Part shown: piece after piece, positions 6,461 to 53,044 of the stretch | How positions within the stretch are numbered: the stretch's first letter is position 1 | How the letters are laid out: each line of letters starts with the position of its first letter | Assembly (NCBI GenBank): GCA_025353725.1 | Contig: JANXOF010000023.1 | Location: 1-64,000 of the forward strand | Direction of reading: 5' to 3' | From: Polyangiaceae bacterium | Lineage (GTDB): Bacteria > Myxococcota_A > Polyangia > Polyangiales > Polyangiaceae | DNA: 64,000 nucleotides | Translations under genes and position numbers: made by a program | Notes under the pieces: generated by a model | Databases searched by the model: none | What the model saw: only the letters and a program-made list of their open reading frames with translations | Told to the model about the DNA's origin: nothing

Positions 6461-6820
6461 CGCCCCGTCACCCCCTGAACGAACACGTCTATCGATTGTC
6501 CAAGGCTAGGTAATGCATTCTCGCGCGTCAACAATGCACTGGTACACGCCACTCAACGGAGTGGGAGTTTAGAATACTCAGTAGAGCGGGGCCCCACGCT
6601 CACCTAAACGATCGATGCCTCGAAAACTTGATTTAATGCACGGTCAAGATTCGGACGGAACGCGAAGTGCGCCTCAATGCCGCATTCGCCGAACGCCGCG
6701 AAGGTTGCGGTTAATTTCGTCCATGAGCTACATGAGCTGCATGGGCTACAGGTTGGAATTCGACCGATGCAAAATCATTTTCGTGGCTGCTGGCACTTCT
6801 GAATGTCTCTTCCAGATTGT
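6461..6820. other. Intergenic region upstream of the PEGA kinase
   Basis: 360 bases without a convincing gene. It lies between the start of the kinase (6460, minus) and the end of the Cys-rich frame (6821, minus), so it should contain the kinase promoter and perhaps a terminator for the upstream gene. The only clear structure seen is a set of three 9-base direct repeats at 6723-6749. Confidence 0.5.
6723..6749. repeat. Three tandem 9-bp repeats in an intergenic region
   Basis: Three near-identical units, ATGAGCTAC, ATGAGCTGC and ATGGGCTAC, lie head to tail. They are about 265 bases upstream of the kinase start. Spacing near one helical turn would suit cooperative binding of a regulator, but they could also be a chance expansion. 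Confidence 0.5.
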
Positions 6821-7126
6821 TTAGCGGTCGAGGAGCGGCCCGTCGACGCGCGCCTGAAAGAGAAAATAAGGCGGTATACACGCTCCGACATTTTTCGGAG
6901 AGCCAGCGACAGCCGCGCACGCGTAGTCACCACGGCACGGCGTGTCGCTATCGCACGGGGCCACGAACGCGCTCACGAGATGGCGTTCAAGGCAACGCTC
7001 GAGCGGTTCGCGTGAATTCATGCATTCCGTCTCGTAGCCGGCTGCCGGGAGCCGCGCACAAATCGTGGAGCCACGAACTTCGCCGGGCTGCGAGCAGCGC
7101 TGGCTACACATGCCCCCTGTAAATCC
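6821..7126 (-). pseudogene. Out-of-frame Cys-rich C-terminus of the CxxCH protein
   Basis: Continuing past the GA tract in the next reading frame gives 101 residues that look like genuine protein. It begins GFTGGMCSQRCSQPGE, carries nine cysteines (for example TICARLPAAGYETECMN and PCRGDYACAAV) and ends FLFQARVDGPLLDR before TAA at 6821. The other frame in this stretch is basic and low in structure. The segment joins naturally to the upstream text ending DDAFCAPN, so it is very probably the true C-terminus, displaced by a 2-base length change in the microsatellite. It has no start of its own with a visible Shine-Dalgarno sequence. Confidence 0.75.
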
Positions 7127-8538
7127 GAGAGAGAGAGAGAGAGAGAGAGAGAGTTGGGCGCGCAGAACGCATCGTCTGTCGAGGCTTTCGGAACGGGACA
7201 CCTCGAGTCCGCAGGCAACGCCGCCACAACGGGCCCTTCAGGACGCGAGCTCGGCGTCGACCGAACGTCCTCGCATGGTCGTCCGAGCCTGCCCCCCATC
7301 GGCACGGAGCACATTCCGAATGCGGTTCCGTGAGCGTCACGGCAGATAAGGCCCGCGGCGCATCCCCACCCCCGTAGACCTTCCGTCAGCCCGTACTCGT
7401 CTCCTTCCCTTCCGCCGGGATGCGATGCAAACGGACGCGGGGCGGGCGACAGACCGTTCGATGCGCGCTCAAGACCGGTCGCGCGCCATTCGAGCTCACG
7501 CGCGAGGTGCGGTGAATGCCCGAAGGCGTGCGCGTCGTGCGAGCGCGCTACCCGCTCTCGGCCGAGCAAATGAAATCCGGCGACTCCCGACGTCTGATGA
7601 CAGCCCGGACAGCCCATTTCGTCGAGACGCCGGAGCAGCAATTCGGGTGTCTTCACGAGCGACTGACGCGAGAAGTCGACTCTATTGAAGGCGTCACGGC
7701 TCGCGCCAAGGGCACGCGAGAACGTCGCGTTTTCAGGTCTCGACAACGCGCGCGGAGACACGGACACGGAGACATTCGCAAGAAATCGGCGCAGAACGAC
7801 CGCCGTACCCGCGTCGATCGCGTCGACGTTGGCCGCTACCCACGTGCCGAGCTCACGACGCTCCTCTTCCGAAAGCTCGGTCCTTACCGTGTTGAAGAGC
7901 GTGTCTTGACGAAGCTCCCCAGATTCCGGTCGGAACGCTCGGAGGATGTACTCTGCAGAGTCATCCATATCTTCTCGGGTCGCTGGGACGTGAACGGATT
8001 GATAGTTGACCTCCACAGTGGCGAGCCCGATTTGCGACAGAACGAAGGGTAGGAGCGTCGTTGCTCTCCCCCATCTCGTCCCGACGTTTCGGCAGGTCCT
8101 ATCTTCCCTAGGCATCGGCTGCGGGACGCGAACGTTGACCGTCATCGGAAGGCGCGCCGGGGGACGCCCCTCGTTCTGTAAGACGAGGCGATACACCAGC
8201 CTTACTTCGCCACACGCGGCCGGGTCGAAGCCGCGACGATCGACGCGATTCACGACGCCCGTAAGCTCGAAGTGCCCACGGGATAGCCACGCCGGGTCGA
8301 AAAGCCGGCGTGCGTCGCTCGGCGCTCGCTTCTGAAGCTCGTCGATGTCCTGCCCTATCGCTCGAGCGATGGCCGCGCTCCCCTTGGCGTCAATCACGTC
8401 GGGGAACGCGAGCCCACGTTGCTCTAGCTCGGTGACTAACTCCGCGTCGTCAAAGAGCAGATGGTCGCTCGCCGGTGAGCGCCGCGGCGTCGCCAGCGAG
8501 AGCGAGAGGACGCCTACAGCCAACGAGCGCCATCGCAT
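7018..8538 (-). CDS. Exported CxxCH protein, frameshifted at a GA microsatellite
   Basis: As read, 506 residues with an N-terminal signal peptide (MRWRSLAVGVLSLSLATPRRSPA). I do not recognise the family by name. The body contains a conserved-looking segment (GEVRLVYRLVLQNEGR), a possible c-type heme or redox motif CPGCH in DEMGCPGCHQTSGVAGFHLLG, and a Cys-bearing region (GCAAGLICRDAHGTAFGMC) like the EGF/Dickkopf-like repeats in the neighbour at 8551. The frame runs through (GA)13 as alternating Ser-Leu and ends in a Cys-poor, basic tail (from about residue 472) that looks spurious. With one repeat unit fewer the protein would be about 571 residues and keep its Cys-rich end. It lies 12 bases downstream of the Cys-rich lipoprotein gene. 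Confidence 0.75.
   Translation of the reverse strand: MRWRSLAVGVLSLSLATPRRSPASDHLLFDDAELVTELEQRGLAFPDVIDAKGSAAIARAIGQDIDELQKRAPSDARRLFDPAWLSRGHFELTGVVNRVDRRGFDPAACGEVRLVYRLVLQNEGRPPARLPMTVNVRVPQPMPREDRTCRNVGTRWGRATTLLPFVLSQIGLATVEVNYQSVHVPATREDMDDSAEYILRAFRPESGELRQDTLFNTVRTELSEEERRELGTWVAANVDAIDAGTAVVLRRFLANVSVSVSPRALSRPENATFSRALGASRDAFNRVDFSRQSLVKTPELLLRRLDEMGCPGCHQTSGVAGFHLLGRERVARSHDAHAFGHSPHLARELEWRATGLERASNGLSPAPRPFASHPGGREGDEYGLTEGLRGWGCAAGLICRDAHGTAFGMCSVPMGGRLGRPCEDVRSTPSSRPEGPVVAALPADSRCPVPKASTDDAFCAPNSLSLSLSLSDLQGACVASAARSPAKFVAPRFVRGSRQPATRRNA
7127..7153. repeat. (GA)13 dinucleotide microsatellite inside a coding region
   Basis: Thirteen perfect GA units plus a final G on the plus strand, read as Ser-Leu repeats by the minus-strand gene. 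With 13 units the downstream Cys-rich frame is out of register; 12, 15 or 9 units restore it; 14 or 11 units lead to a stop within eight codons (TAG ending at 7104). Long dinucleotide runs like this slip readily during replication. Confidence 0.95.
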
Positions 8539-49825: not shown

Positions 49826-50473
49826 ATGAAAACGGACATCCTTTCCATCCTTGAATTCGCATGCGTCGCGGGCACCCTCGCACTCGTCGGATGCAGCTCG
49901 GATTCCCCTGCCTCGTCGCCTGCAACCGCGCCACGAAACGCCGCCGAACTTCTCGGCATGGAAGGAGGTCCGGTGACTGCCGACGCGGGTTGTCCGGCGG
50001 TGCCCGCAGGCTGCCCCGCTGCCGATGCAGGCCCGCTCGCGGAGGTGCAACTTCCCCCAACCGGCGGAGACGCCGAAATTTCCGCCTGGATCGCCAAGGG
50101 CTACTACAAGAGCTGGACGTGTGAACCGTCGCCCCATCCCGCTCGTCCGAATGGGGCTCACGGCGTCAACCGCGTTTGCTCGAATGCCGTGTTGAGTGCT
50201 CACGGCGCGGGCGAATTCCCAGTAGGCTCGGCAGGCGTCAAAGAGCTTTACAACGAGGCCGGCACCCTCATCATCGGCTACGCGAGCTACCGAAAAGTAG
50301 CTGCAGGCGCGGGCGGCGCCTGGTACTGGTACGAAAAAACGACGGAAGACGGCCTGATTGCCAATGGCCTCGGTACGTCTGGCGTCCCGAAAACCGTATG
50401 CGCATCGTGTCATTCAAGTGCCGGCACGGGTCGTCTCTCCGGGCACGATTTCGTTTACACCCAAGTGCGGTGA
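49826..50473 (+). CDS. Cytochrome P460-like lipoprotein with CxxCH
   Basis: 215 residues. The signal MKTDILSILEFACVAGTLALVGC is a lipoprotein signal (lipobox VGC). A Pro/Ala-rich linker contains the Cys-bearing DAGCPAVPAGCPAADAG. The C-terminal part has the P460 pattern: GGAWYWYEK, then TVCASCHSSAGTGR with heme motif CASCH at 192-196 and the ending DFVYTQVR (P460 family: WYW ... CxxCH ... DYVFT). Its stop is overlapped by the next gene at GTG 50470 or followed at ATG 50479. A possible exported substrate or partner of the DUF692 enzyme. Confidence 0.8.
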   Translation: MKTDILSILEFACVAGTLALVGCSSDSPASSPATAPRNAAELLGMEGGPVTADAGCPAVPAGCPAADAGPLAEVQLPPTGGDAEISAWIAKGYYKSWTCEPSPHPARPNGAHGVNRVCSNAVLSAHGAGEFPVGSAGVKELYNEAGTLIIGYASYRKVAAGAGGAWYWYEKTTEDGLIANGLGTSGVPKTVCASCHSSAGTGRLSGHDFVYTQVR

Positions 50474-50478
50474 CAGGC

Positions 50479-51294
50479 ATGGCAGGCTTTCGTGCGGTCC
50501 GTGGCGTTGGAATCGGATTGCGACGTGAATTTCACGACGCCATCCTGAAAACGACGCGCCGCATCGACTGGTTGGAGATCGTGGCTGAAAACTTCATGAG
50601 CATGGAAGGCCGTCCGCGGTACGTCCTCGATGCCTGCCTCGAGCGGTGGCCCGTCGTTTCTCACGGCGTGGCCGCTTCGGTGGGTACGCAGCGAGTCGAC
50701 CGTTACGATGAGTCTCTTGCGAGGCTCGTAGCCAAACTCGACGCCCAGTTTTTCAGCGACCACCTTTGCTACTCGTCGGCCTTTGGCCATGAATCATTCG
50801 ACTTACTTCCCTTGCCCTTTACCGACGAAGCCGTGGCGGCCGTCGCGACACGGGCAAGCGAGATGGCGACGCGCGTAGGGCGTCCGATGTTGCTCGAGAA
50901 CATTACGTATTACGCCGAGATGCCGGGTTCAAAAATGCGAGAGCACGAGTTCGTGCGGCGGGCTCTCGACGCTTCCGGATGCGGACTTCTCCTCGACTTG
51001 AACAACCTCTATCTCAACGCGCGCAATCATGGGCACGACGCGATGAAGGCCTTGCGTCAGCTGCCACTCGAAAGAGTTCAGCAGATTCACTTGGCCGGAT
51101 ACAGCACGGAGGGAGACATCCTCCTCGACACGCATTCCTCAGCGATAGCCGACCCCGTGTGGGACCTCTATCGGGAGACAATCAAACGCATCGGTCAAGT
51201 TCCGACCCTCATCGAGTGGGACCAGCGCATCCCCTCCCTCGATGCCGTGATCGACGAGGCAGACAAGGCACGCGCCCTCCTGGAGTCACCGTGA
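50479..51294 (+). CDS. DUF692-family multinuclear iron-dependent oxidase (MNIO)
   Basis: 271 residues from ATG 50479 (GTG 50470 gives a GTGA overlap with the previous stop). Conserved metal-binding positions of DUF692/MbnB/TglH-type enzymes are all present: E33, N38 (EIVAENFM), H62 (SHGVA), D94-H95 (SDHLC), E140-N141 (LLENI), D173-N175-N176 (LLDLNN), H204 (QIHLAGY), D217-H219 (LLDTHS) and E246-D248 (IEWD). Known members use two or three iron ions to install oxazolone/thioamide groups or to excise or modify Cys residues of ribosomal peptides. It is coupled to its partner gene by a GTGA overlap. Confidence 0.95.
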   Translation: MAGFRAVRGVGIGLRREFHDAILKTTRRIDWLEIVAENFMSMEGRPRYVLDACLERWPVVSHGVAASVGTQRVDRYDESLARLVAKLDAQFFSDHLCYSSAFGHESFDLLPLPFTDEAVAAVATRASEMATRVGRPMLLENITYYAEMPGSKMREHEFVRRALDASGCGLLLDLNNLYLNARNHGHDAMKALRQLPLERVQQIHLAGYSTEGDILLDTHSSAIADPVWDLYRETIKRIGQVPTLIEWDQRIPSLDAVIDEADKARALLESP

Positions 51295-52031
51295 AACCCG
51301 TACCTTTAAGCGATTTTTTCGAGGCGATATGGCCGTTCATGAACCACCGCACGGGAGTTGCGGAGACGGTTCGCGCGCTCGGCCCCAGCTCGTCCGGGGT
51401 CGCTCGTTTAGCGTTGTACCCGGAACTCATTCGTCGTCAGAAGCAGAGCATCCTCGACCATTTTTTCTCTTCCGTTCGCGCAGCTTTTGGTTCGAGCGAT
51501 GCGGGACGGTGGGAGCGCCTGACTGCAGAGTACATGCGCAAAGCTTCGCCCCACCACTGGGAGCCAAATCATTATGCGCAGCCCATGGTCGCCTTTCTCG
51601 AGGCTGAGCAAGCAAGCGATGCTTCGATTCCTTACGCGGCTGTCGAGCTCGCAGATTTCGCATGGATTCGCTTCGAAGCAATGATGTCCGCTCACCCGCC
51701 TTATCCCGATCCGGGCCTCGGAAGTGCCGTGTTCGTTAGGCAGTATGCTCACGAGATTTCGACGTTCGCGTTCGCCGCGGAGACCCGAACACTTGCGCCC
51801 GGCGCGCTTCCGTCACCCGTGCCTTGTACCGTGCTGGTGTACCGCTCTCGATCGACTCAGCGCCTTGAGATCCTCCGACCTTCCGTCGCGACACTTATCG
51901 CACTTCGGCGGCGCGAAGCGCCTGGTGCCCCCTTCACTCTTCCCTCGGCTCTCGTGGAAAGCGACGTTGACCACGAAGAGACGGATCTCATCCAGCGGGG
52001 TGTACTCGCTGCCCGTCCGACCGCCGCATGA
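51291..52031 (+). CDS. DUF2063-like partner of the DUF692 enzyme
   Basis: 246 residues from GTG 51291, which overlaps the DUF692 stop. It resembles the DUF2063 (MbnC/BufC-like) partner proteins that present the substrate peptide to DUF692 enzymes: helical N-terminal domain (LYPELIRRQKQSILDHFFSSV, VAFLEAEQAS, AAVELADFAWIRFEAM) and a beta-rich C-terminal half (LEILRPSVATLIALRRREAPG). Sequence conservation is low in this family, so the assignment relies partly on gene order and length. Its stop overlaps the next gene (ATGA). Confidence 0.8.
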   Translation: MKPVPLSDFFEAIWPFMNHRTGVAETVRALGPSSSGVARLALYPELIRRQKQSILDHFFSSVRAAFGSSDAGRWERLTAEYMRKASPHHWEPNHYAQPMVAFLEAEQASDASIPYAAVELADFAWIRFEAMMSAHPPYPDPGLGSAVFVRQYAHEISTFAFAAETRTLAPGALPSPVPCTVLVYRSRSTQRLEILRPSVATLIALRRREAPGAPFTLPSALVESDVDHEETDLIQRGVLAARPTAA

Positions 52032-53044
52032 GTGGCAAGTACTCGTGGCGGCGCGCCCGACGTGGCTTCCTCGCGCTCGGTTTTGCGGTCTCCGTCGCCT
52101 ACGCCTTCAAGCCAATGAGGAGCATGACGCCGGCGCCGAAGCTACCGGATGGCGTTCGTTACGACGCTTCACATTGGAATGCTTCCGATTGGATACGCGA
52201 AGGCTATGCGGAAATGGTGAGTCCCATTCGCCCGCCAAGCTCCGAGGATGGTCAAACGCGCATTGCCGTATTCCTTCGTCTTCCCCCTTCCGGCCTTCTT
52301 CGTGCTGTAAAGGTCGGAGAAAGCTTTTCTCTCGAACTCCCTTCGGGAACGCGCTCCGAACGCGTCGAATTCGCGGGTGACGGACCGCGCGATTCGATCC
52401 CCGCGAATACCTGGCGCGTCCTCGACGTACGCGGGATTACGTTTGACGGACCAAACGCGACGCTGCGCGTTCTTCGACCAAAAGCAGGCGTGCCGGGAGA
52501 GCTACTCGGCGTCAGCTGGGAGCGCGGCGTCGCTCAAGCGGCGGCAACGCTCGCGCTCGGGGACCTCGTCCTACGCGCTCAGGTTGCGGCGCCTGCAAAA
52601 GCCGACGACCGAGAGCGCGCTGCAGCGAGGTTACGCGGTCTCAACGATTGCCCTTCGTGTCACACTCCGCATCAGGGCGGTCGTCGCTCCGAAAAGGACG
52701 TGGGAATCGTCAATCGCGGGACAGATGCCTCGGGAATGTTCCAAGTGACATCGATATTTAAGAGCCGACTGCCTTTTGAAACGTATCGCCCAAAAGATAT
52801 GAATCTGGATGACCCGTTCATGGCTCGCTACTGCGGCAGCGTGAAGGTCGACCCCCGGACCGTGCGGTGTCCGGACGGTACTCTCTTGGAGGGCGAACTC
52901 GACGTCCGCGGAGGTCTCCGTGCCGGAGACATGCACGTCCAACGCGTGTGCTCCGCGAGACGGCTGCTGGCTGAAAACCTCGACGAATCAGGCCGGGCGG
53001 CTTTTAGCGCCTCGCTCGCCGAGTGCAGCATCGCACCGCGCTGA
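52028..53044 (+). CDS. Exported CxxCH protein, last gene of the DUF692 operon
   Basis: 338 residues starting at ATG 52028, which overlaps the preceding stop. The N-terminus SWRRARRGFLALGFAVSVAYAF resembles a twin-arginine signal. The heme-type motif CPSCH is at 208-212 (LNDCPSCHTPHQGGRR). Residues about 45-200 look beta-rich; the C-terminus has two more cysteines. In the P460 family position one would expect a catalytic heme; this protein could be the electron-transfer or substrate component. No known family by name. Confidence 0.78.
   Translation: MSGKYSWRRARRGFLALGFAVSVAYAFKPMRSMTPAPKLPDGVRYDASHWNASDWIREGYAEMVSPIRPPSSEDGQTRIAVFLRLPPSGLLRAVKVGESFSLELPSGTRSERVEFAGDGPRDSIPANTWRVLDVRGITFDGPNATLRVLRPKAGVPGELLGVSWERGVAQAAATLALGDLVLRAQVAAPAKADDRERAAARLRGLNDCPSCHTPHQGGRRSEKDVGIVNRGTDASGMFQVTSIFKSRLPFETYRPKDMNLDDPFMARYCGSVKVDPRTVRCPDGTLLEGELDVRGGLRAGDMHVQRVCSARRLLAENLDESGRAAFSASLAECSIAPR

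Follow-up and report, generated by a model that had tools for sequence, protein, structure and literature searches.

A DUF692 (MNIO) operon of a Polyangiaceae bacterium and a candidate Gly-Cys-Pro repeat core fused to a P460-like haem protein

What does an MNIO (DUF692) enzyme modify when its operon is built around two exported haem-motif proteins? The question is raised by four plus-strand genes, A to D, in a stretch of 64,000 nucleotides (positions 1 to 64,000 of contig JANXOF010000023.1, assembly GCA_025353725.1; hereafter the window) from a Polyangiaceae bacterium whose genome (G000) comprises 98 contigs. A sequence-only reading of the window had described an operon of four genes joined by 4-base overlaps. 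This was confirmed: four open reading frames (ORFs) lie on the plus strand and overlap by GTGA, GTGA and ATGA at the three joins. An alternative in-frame start of gene B, ATG at 50479 instead of GTG at 50470, would leave no overlap between A and B.

Our answer, to which we give a probability of roughly 0.7, is that protein A is a natural fusion of the precursor of a ribosomally synthesized and post-translationally modified peptide (RiPP) with a haem protein, its linker DAGCPAVPAGCPAADAG being a putative core of two Gly-Cys-Pro (GCP) units. Judged from sequence comparison, the GCP cysteines are probably the substrate of the MNIO. The operon product is most likely a membrane-anchored haem protein whose linker cysteines are probably chemically rewired by an iron enzyme, perhaps into a metal site. 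The features are as follows.

49826..50473, + strand: gene A, predicted lipoprotein; RiPP-like leader, then a GCP core of two units and a CxxCH domain resembling P460/c'-beta
49826..49894, + strand: putative signal peptide/leader of A, MKTDILSILEFACVAGTLALVGC, ending at lipobox Cys23
49982..50032, + strand: putative core of A, DAGCPAVPAGCPAADAG, residues 53-69; proposed MNIO targets Cys56 (49991-49993) and Cys63 (50012-50014)
50060..50470, + strand: P460/c'-beta-like haem domain of A, about residues 79-215; Lys139 at 50240-50242, CASCH at 50399-50413
50470..51294, + strand: gene B, MNIO (DUF692, PF05114), GTG start
51291..52031, + strand: gene C, DUF2063/HvfC-like partner, PME type 1-like, GTG start
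52028..53044, + strand: gene D, exported CxxCH protein, CPSCH at 52649-52663, of a family without Pfam match

A leader-GCP family beside one MNIO clade

Protein A begins with the leader MKTDILSILE and a lipobox-like Cys23, followed by the linker (residues 53-69) and the CASCH motif. The two GCP units occupy residues 55-57 and 62-64, and the linker is predicted to be disordered, with a predicted local distance difference test score (pLDDT) below 50 at residues 33-67 of the model. In an alignment of 23 precursor rows, M1 and C23 of the leader are invariant, C23 in a lipobox-like context, and L9 is nearly so; in the core, G55, C56, G62, C63 and P64 are invariant and P57 is nearly so. Since the rows were picked for having the motif, this alignment alone proves nothing.

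Further loci were found through D. Of 317 genomes of the host's class, 30 encode a relative of D, G000 included, and 29 of the 32 listed D places were fetched, leaving out the place in G000 itself and two weak ones (G279, G280). Gene B is recognizable in 22 of the 29 loci; C is recognizable in 21, the contig of L122 stopping within B. An ORF with a leader and tandem Cys repeats adjoins the MNIO in 21 of these 22 D-MNIO loci, 20 of which carry at least two GCP units. In the 21st, L100 (re-read as L201), GCP is absent and AGC occurs six times within an AGCGGGG repeat. The 22nd, L103 of genome G100, has no local repeat peptide; elsewhere in G100, two unlinked proteins combine the leader and GCP units with a P460-like domain (L167 with nine GCP, L168 with four). 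The leader common to the precursor ORFs is of the M-K-x-(D/N)-L-x-x-(I/V)-L-E-A type and is followed by a lipobox-like Cys; the repeats, such as TAGCPGT, DGGCPTT, AGCPGTT, GGCPTTD and AGCGGGG, lie in a low-complexity stretch.

In most loci the repeat is a free peptide, with 2 to 14 GCP units in the class. It is fused to a P460-like CxxCH domain in the window and in L095, L099, L108 and L123. The A-B-C-D order recurs in these four loci and is therefore not accidental. The sequence-only reading saw no short precursor peptide. That is true of the window, whereas across the family the repeat is more often a short peptide than a fusion. Both forms occur in locus L102 (genome G099). One is a separate ORF of ten units that ends in a short tail containing Cys; the other, encoded upstream of D, joins the leader and three units to a P460-type domain (22.3 bits, cut-off 27).

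Two further proteins show other arrangements. In L165 (G099:C1), a leader with six AGC units, five of them GCP, is fused to a different Cys-rich domain, so that the leader-GCP module seems portable. L169 (G241:C34), the second leader-GCP protein of G241, has four GCP and a truncated haem domain that looks to be in decay.

Seven free repeat peptides scanned against Pfam gave no match, and five scanned against NCBIfam gave none at cut-off; two fusions gave one sub-threshold P460 match. By these scans the precursor, with its GCP or AGCG motif, falls outside the DUF2282, Buf2, Lys-Cys (EGKCG) and Cys-Lys groups.

The host genome contains a paralogue of A on contig 90 (L124 4945-5556; G000:C90:79444-80052), 59% identical, whose leader is similar and which also carries two GCP units. 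The 10.5 kb fetched around it contain no B, C or D. It is a second, unlinked leader-GCP-P460-like fusion and a likely second substrate in trans.

As controls, 47 distinct P460-like proteins scoring at least 60 bits were compared. In this sample, which is partial (P0001 matches in 83 of the 317 genomes) and was partly chosen by the leader-GCP search, at least two GCP units occur in five of the six proteins adjoining an MNIO versus four of the 41 others (Fisher p 4.5e-4). The four non-adjacent carriers (L124, L166, L167 and L168) come from G000, G092 and G100, so that all nine GCP carriers belong to genomes with a D-MNIO cluster. The remaining 38 have no GCP at all, several of them despite long Ser/Thr/Asp linkers; a recount gave 37 such controls, with L176 (no GCP) dropped by the duplicate rule. 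Below 60 bits, and so outside the 47, are L169 and the canonical P460 proteins of the clusters (no GCP); the L102 fusion is also outside. GCP per protein was used since the count of linker Cys from lipobox to domain is unreliable, the domain-start rule having misplaced several linkers. The loose leader pattern of the script also fitted two control proteins, L020 and L179.

A leader-GCP profile was searched against the 317 genomes. The full tally of 103 genomes reflects mostly low-complexity matching, so only listed matches that start at model position 1-2 were used. Among the matches listed, 27 start there, from 21 genomes that all have D, and five of them were not rows of the profile (G099:C1, G092:C32, G100:C6, G100:C59 and G241:C34). 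The listed matches in the host genome are A and its paralogue alone.

A tree of 54 MNIOs places the 23 GCP/D-linked enzymes on one side of a branch with support 96/89. The remaining 31 are a selection, comprising the 30 PF05114 places with the highest scores in the class and a second MNIO of G000, on contig 74. The enzymes of window-type fusions (the window, L095, L108, L099 and L123) group together (100/98). Short Cys ORFs printed before the other MNIOs are often of CKGKGGCK or CSGAKE type and never a GCP repeat, with nothing or a doubtful ORF printed upstream of several. Comparison of these loci shows that leader and GCP units make up one putative precursor family, free or fused, tied to this MNIO clade and to D.

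The family extends beyond the class. Of 377 genomes drawn from the wider phylum, 14 encode D, and three of these lie outside the class. In L198 (G488), a free peptide of 17 GCP units precedes B, C and D, the same order with a free precursor. L199 (G560) combines a free peptide of 15 GCP units with a P460-like gene and D, and its fetched 7 kb contain no B. In L200, D stands without the other cluster genes.

The enzyme pair, the haem proteins and the neighbourhood

Protein B belongs to the MNIO superfamily (PF05114, 2e-90, 303 bits, cut-off 25). Its best-scoring models are BufB and HvfB, the closest NCBIfam model being BufB at 288.6 bits (cut-off 310). The catalytic positions had been described as intact, and this is borne out by a 22-row alignment in which H65, H98, E143, N144, D176, N179, H207, D220, H222 and E249 are invariant. 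Most of these ten align onto identical residues of MbnB (7dz9), and we take the invariant His, Asp, Glu and Asn positions to be metal ligands. Protein C scores 27.1 bits against DUF2063 in Pfam, just under the cut-off of 27.2, 36 bits against HvfC in NCBIfam (cut-off 142), and matches 3dee at E 0.023. The MNIO is thus adjoined by a DUF2063-type partner with a putative RiPP recognition element, in the gene order of PME type 1 systems.

The P460-like character assigned to A was upheld. Pfam P460 matches below threshold (E 0.032), and the predicted fold is that of cytochrome c'-beta/P460: the best Foldseek match of the haem domain is 7ead (E 1.1e-3, probability 1.00), and in the VIA fold comparison the 17 best rows are all P460 or c'-beta (Z 9.4-6.8; the next row has 3.5), the top row reaching Z 9.4 over 117 residues at 3.5 Å. 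The A profile matches only cytochrome P460 among PDB sequences, at E 0.58 and 0.78. In a 17-row alignment, C192, C195 and H196 of the haem site and Lys139 are invariant. By a weak alignment (E 0.78), Lys139 corresponds to Lys78 of Methylococcus capsulatus P460 (McP460), and no acid stands at the place of the distal carboxylate of P460. Lys78 is the haem cross-link residue of that protein (PMC11928373).

Protein D has the CPSCH motif and no Pfam match; one relative gives a sub-threshold Tll0287-like Pfam match (E 0.014). Its Tat-like start is present in the window protein but is not a family feature, a loose twin-Arg pattern being found in four of 27 relatives. The D model has a pLDDT of 89.6. 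Foldseek gave no match for it at E<=0.001, and VIA gave LOV domains at Z 6.0, 7s5o at Z 5.1 (125 residues, 4.1 Å) and 6hiu at Z 4.5. LOV (PAS) domains, c'-beta and P460 all score weakly against D. We claim no common origin for D and A, since hhalign aligned the CxxCH stretch only (probability 4.6). Seven D copies have no MNIO in the fetched stretch (L106, L111, L121, L096, L097, L116 and L118). The first three are at the end of a contig or on a short one; of these, L121 shares its genome with L123 and may supply the remaining half of the L123 D.

A P460-like gene or domain with CxxCH is present in 18 of the 22 D-MNIO clusters: 12 were recognized by BLAST clustering and two, L104 and L109, by Pfam (L109 scoring below the cut-off), and in four the domain is fused as in the window. 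None was found in L103, L114, L117 and L122. Recurrent neighbours are A to D, P460 genes, repeat peptides, a LysR-type regulator, one family in three loci, and shadow ORFs. The LysR-type family stands beside four clusters (L095 1602-2480; L099 2336-3253; L100 3565-4443, the Pfam-checked copy; L108 near 1-852). In L109 the gene of a sigma-70-family factor (6562-7146, minus strand) separates the P460-like gene from D. No copper gene was identified among the recurrent neighbours, in a search by recurrence in which neighbours were not annotated singly.

Proposed mechanism and alternative explanations

In related systems, HvfBC and FonBC, the partner protein takes part, a four-electron oxidation by the MNIO turns the repeated Cys into 5-thiooxazole, and the resulting products bind copper (PMC13419390, PMC12668002). 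By analogy, the N-terminal signal peptide of A would double as leader and be held by C. B would oxidize Cys56 and Cys63 in the cytoplasm while A is unfolded, most likely giving thiooxazole-type sulfur ligands as its relatives do. A would then be exported by Sec, lipidated at Cys23 and supplied with haem c at CASCH, as its motifs suggest. The modified linker might thereby come to lie at the membrane beside the P460/c'-beta-like haem, and might work with the exported haem protein D. The modified Cys may bind copper or another soft metal, with the haems handling associated redox chemistry. We give metal binding by the modified core an even chance. Functional coupling of the core to the haem domain is more tentative; the link to haem redox chemistry is drawn from the recurrent D and P460-like proteins.

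FonBC modified a two-repeat peptide and left a single-repeat peptide unmodified (PMC12668002), and A carries two repeats, the number that sufficed there. With two units but Pro after Cys, a thiooxazole-type product is the first guess and a new Cys-Pro product the alternative. A core on a cytochrome has precedent in the reported fusions of Buf1 with cytochrome c, in a paper that also argues that MNIOs possibly modify proteins (PMC12452194), and lipoprotein MNIO RiPPs are known (PMC12636315).

Several observations weigh against the fusion reading. B and C score below the BufB and HvfC cut-offs of NCBIfam. FonBC is intolerant to Pro at all sites of its repeats (PMC12668002), and what holds for the chemistry of close relatives may therefore fail for a GCP core. 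The MNIO-adjacent P460-like protein L109 has no GCP, although its cluster holds a separate seven-GCP ORF. The way in which the P460-like sample was chosen favours the contrast seen in it. D is present without MNIO, with flanks of several kb, in L096, L097, L116 and L118 (G312, G313 and G238), so D exists independently of the MNIO and may, by its distribution, have a role of its own.

The alternative that survives best keeps the substrate and changes the product: the Cys-Pro core would carry a different modification and serve nitric oxide (NO), hydroxylamine, peroxide or electron-transfer chemistry with both haem proteins, instead of forming a copper-binding thiooxazole. We regard this as a real though minority possibility. 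Cys-Pro falls outside the three captophorin groups described in the text of PMC12668002, the same text in which FonBC refuses Pro; P460/c'-beta proteins bind NO and some oxidize hydroxylamine (PMC11928373); and P460-like genes or domains recur in most of the clusters. It is opposed by the models that fit B best, BufB and HvfB, whose products bind copper (PMC12452194, PMC13419390, PMC12668002), and by the AGC-Gly repeats of the G304 peptide, which resemble the Cys-Gly of known thiooxazole cores.

It is improbable that the GCP linker is an ordinary low-complexity spacer, with the true peptide substrate of the MNIO encoded elsewhere. In favour of this view, P460-like lipoproteins of the class commonly have long Ser/Thr/Asp/Gly linkers, and the contig-74 MNIO of the host (L002 551-3000, minus strand, with a possible partner ORF) does stand beside another short Cys peptide, a lipoprotein-like ORF ending GSCGAGTCSAKK. 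This MNIO sits on a long branch beside the GCP clade, and with its short Cys-bearing ORF it seems to represent another, bufferin-like system existing separately in G000. GCP-free linkers in the 38 controls, the free repeat peptides adjoining sister MNIOs and the confinement of host-genome profile matches to A and its paralogue all speak against a mere spacer. Weakest is the idea that the MNIO targets Cys in D or in the haem domain of A, or builds on the cytochrome itself: it has in its favour that both haem proteins are within the operon and that D follows the MNIO clade, and it is made very improbable by free repeat peptides without haem domain beside sister MNIOs, by domain Cys residues of A that are nearly invariant also in P460-like proteins away from any MNIO, and by D without MNIO in three genomes.

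Of what the sequence-only reading had suggested, modification of a Cys in a larger exported protein by way of DAGCPAVPAGCPAADAG thus gains by comparison, as leader and GCP units are free beside sister MNIOs and fused here; modification of the CPSCH of D or of the haem domain of the cytochrome finds no support.

The fusion reading suggests a route by which the substrate of an MNIO could pass from free repeat peptides to folded exported proteins, and it bears on the question whether MNIOs modify proper proteins. The free peptides of 2-14 GCP (up to 17 outside the class), the fusions of 2-9 and the one genome with substrates only in trans offer a test set. The system would add a Cys-Pro core to a field in which the enzyme pair tried on Pro variants does not accept them, and would tie MNIO chemistry to two haem proteins, one of them from a family without a Pfam entry. 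That it represents a further class of DUF2063-dependent MNIO products, with Cys-Pro repeats, on lipoproteins and with a modified core fusable to a c-type haem domain, is a possibility that we consider rather unlikely. If it held, a sulfur/metal site built after translation would lie beside a haem, giving a new kind of redox metalloprotein, possibly with Cys-Pro chemistry beyond the known thiooxazole MNIOs.

Comparison with known systems

A literature search found no paper joining 'cytochrome P460' and 'DUF692', and the strings AGCPG, AGCPA and GCPGTT were not found in the MNIO/DUF692 literature searched. The main text of PMC12452194 contains no word starting with myxo, P460 or GCP; its 'adjamnio-3' family or a small ORF among those it lists may be related. 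These results support, without proving, that the GCP family is not in print.

The captophorins/oxazolins (HvfA, FonA, EGKCG repeats; HvfBC/FonBC) resemble the present system in the MNIO with DUF2063-type partner, the exported precursor with tandem short Cys repeats and the precursor-MNIO-partner order. Unlike them, the present precursors have GCP (or AGCG) units of about 7-8 residues without Lys, whereas FonBC rejects Pro, and the clusters include the P460-like fusion, D and P460-type haem proteins, with no DoxX among the recurrent neighbours. Bufferins (BufA1/BufA2, BufBC) share an exported Cys-bearing precursor, BufB is the closest NCBIfam model for B, and fusions of their core to Cytochrom_C are known (PMC12452194); the GCP peptides differ in having no DUF2282 or Buf2 signature in Pfam or NCBIfam, and B falls under the BufB cut-off. 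DAG-RiPPs (DybA, NedA) likewise have a lipoprotein signal with lipobox Cys on an MNIO precursor (PMC12636315), lipidation here being putative and read from the motif; the core motif and the haem-domain fusion of A set it apart. With the cytochrome P460/c'-beta superfamily, A shares its predicted fold, CxxCH and an invariant Lys aligned weakly to McP460 Lys78, but it matches Pfam only below threshold and carries a RiPP-like leader and core in front.

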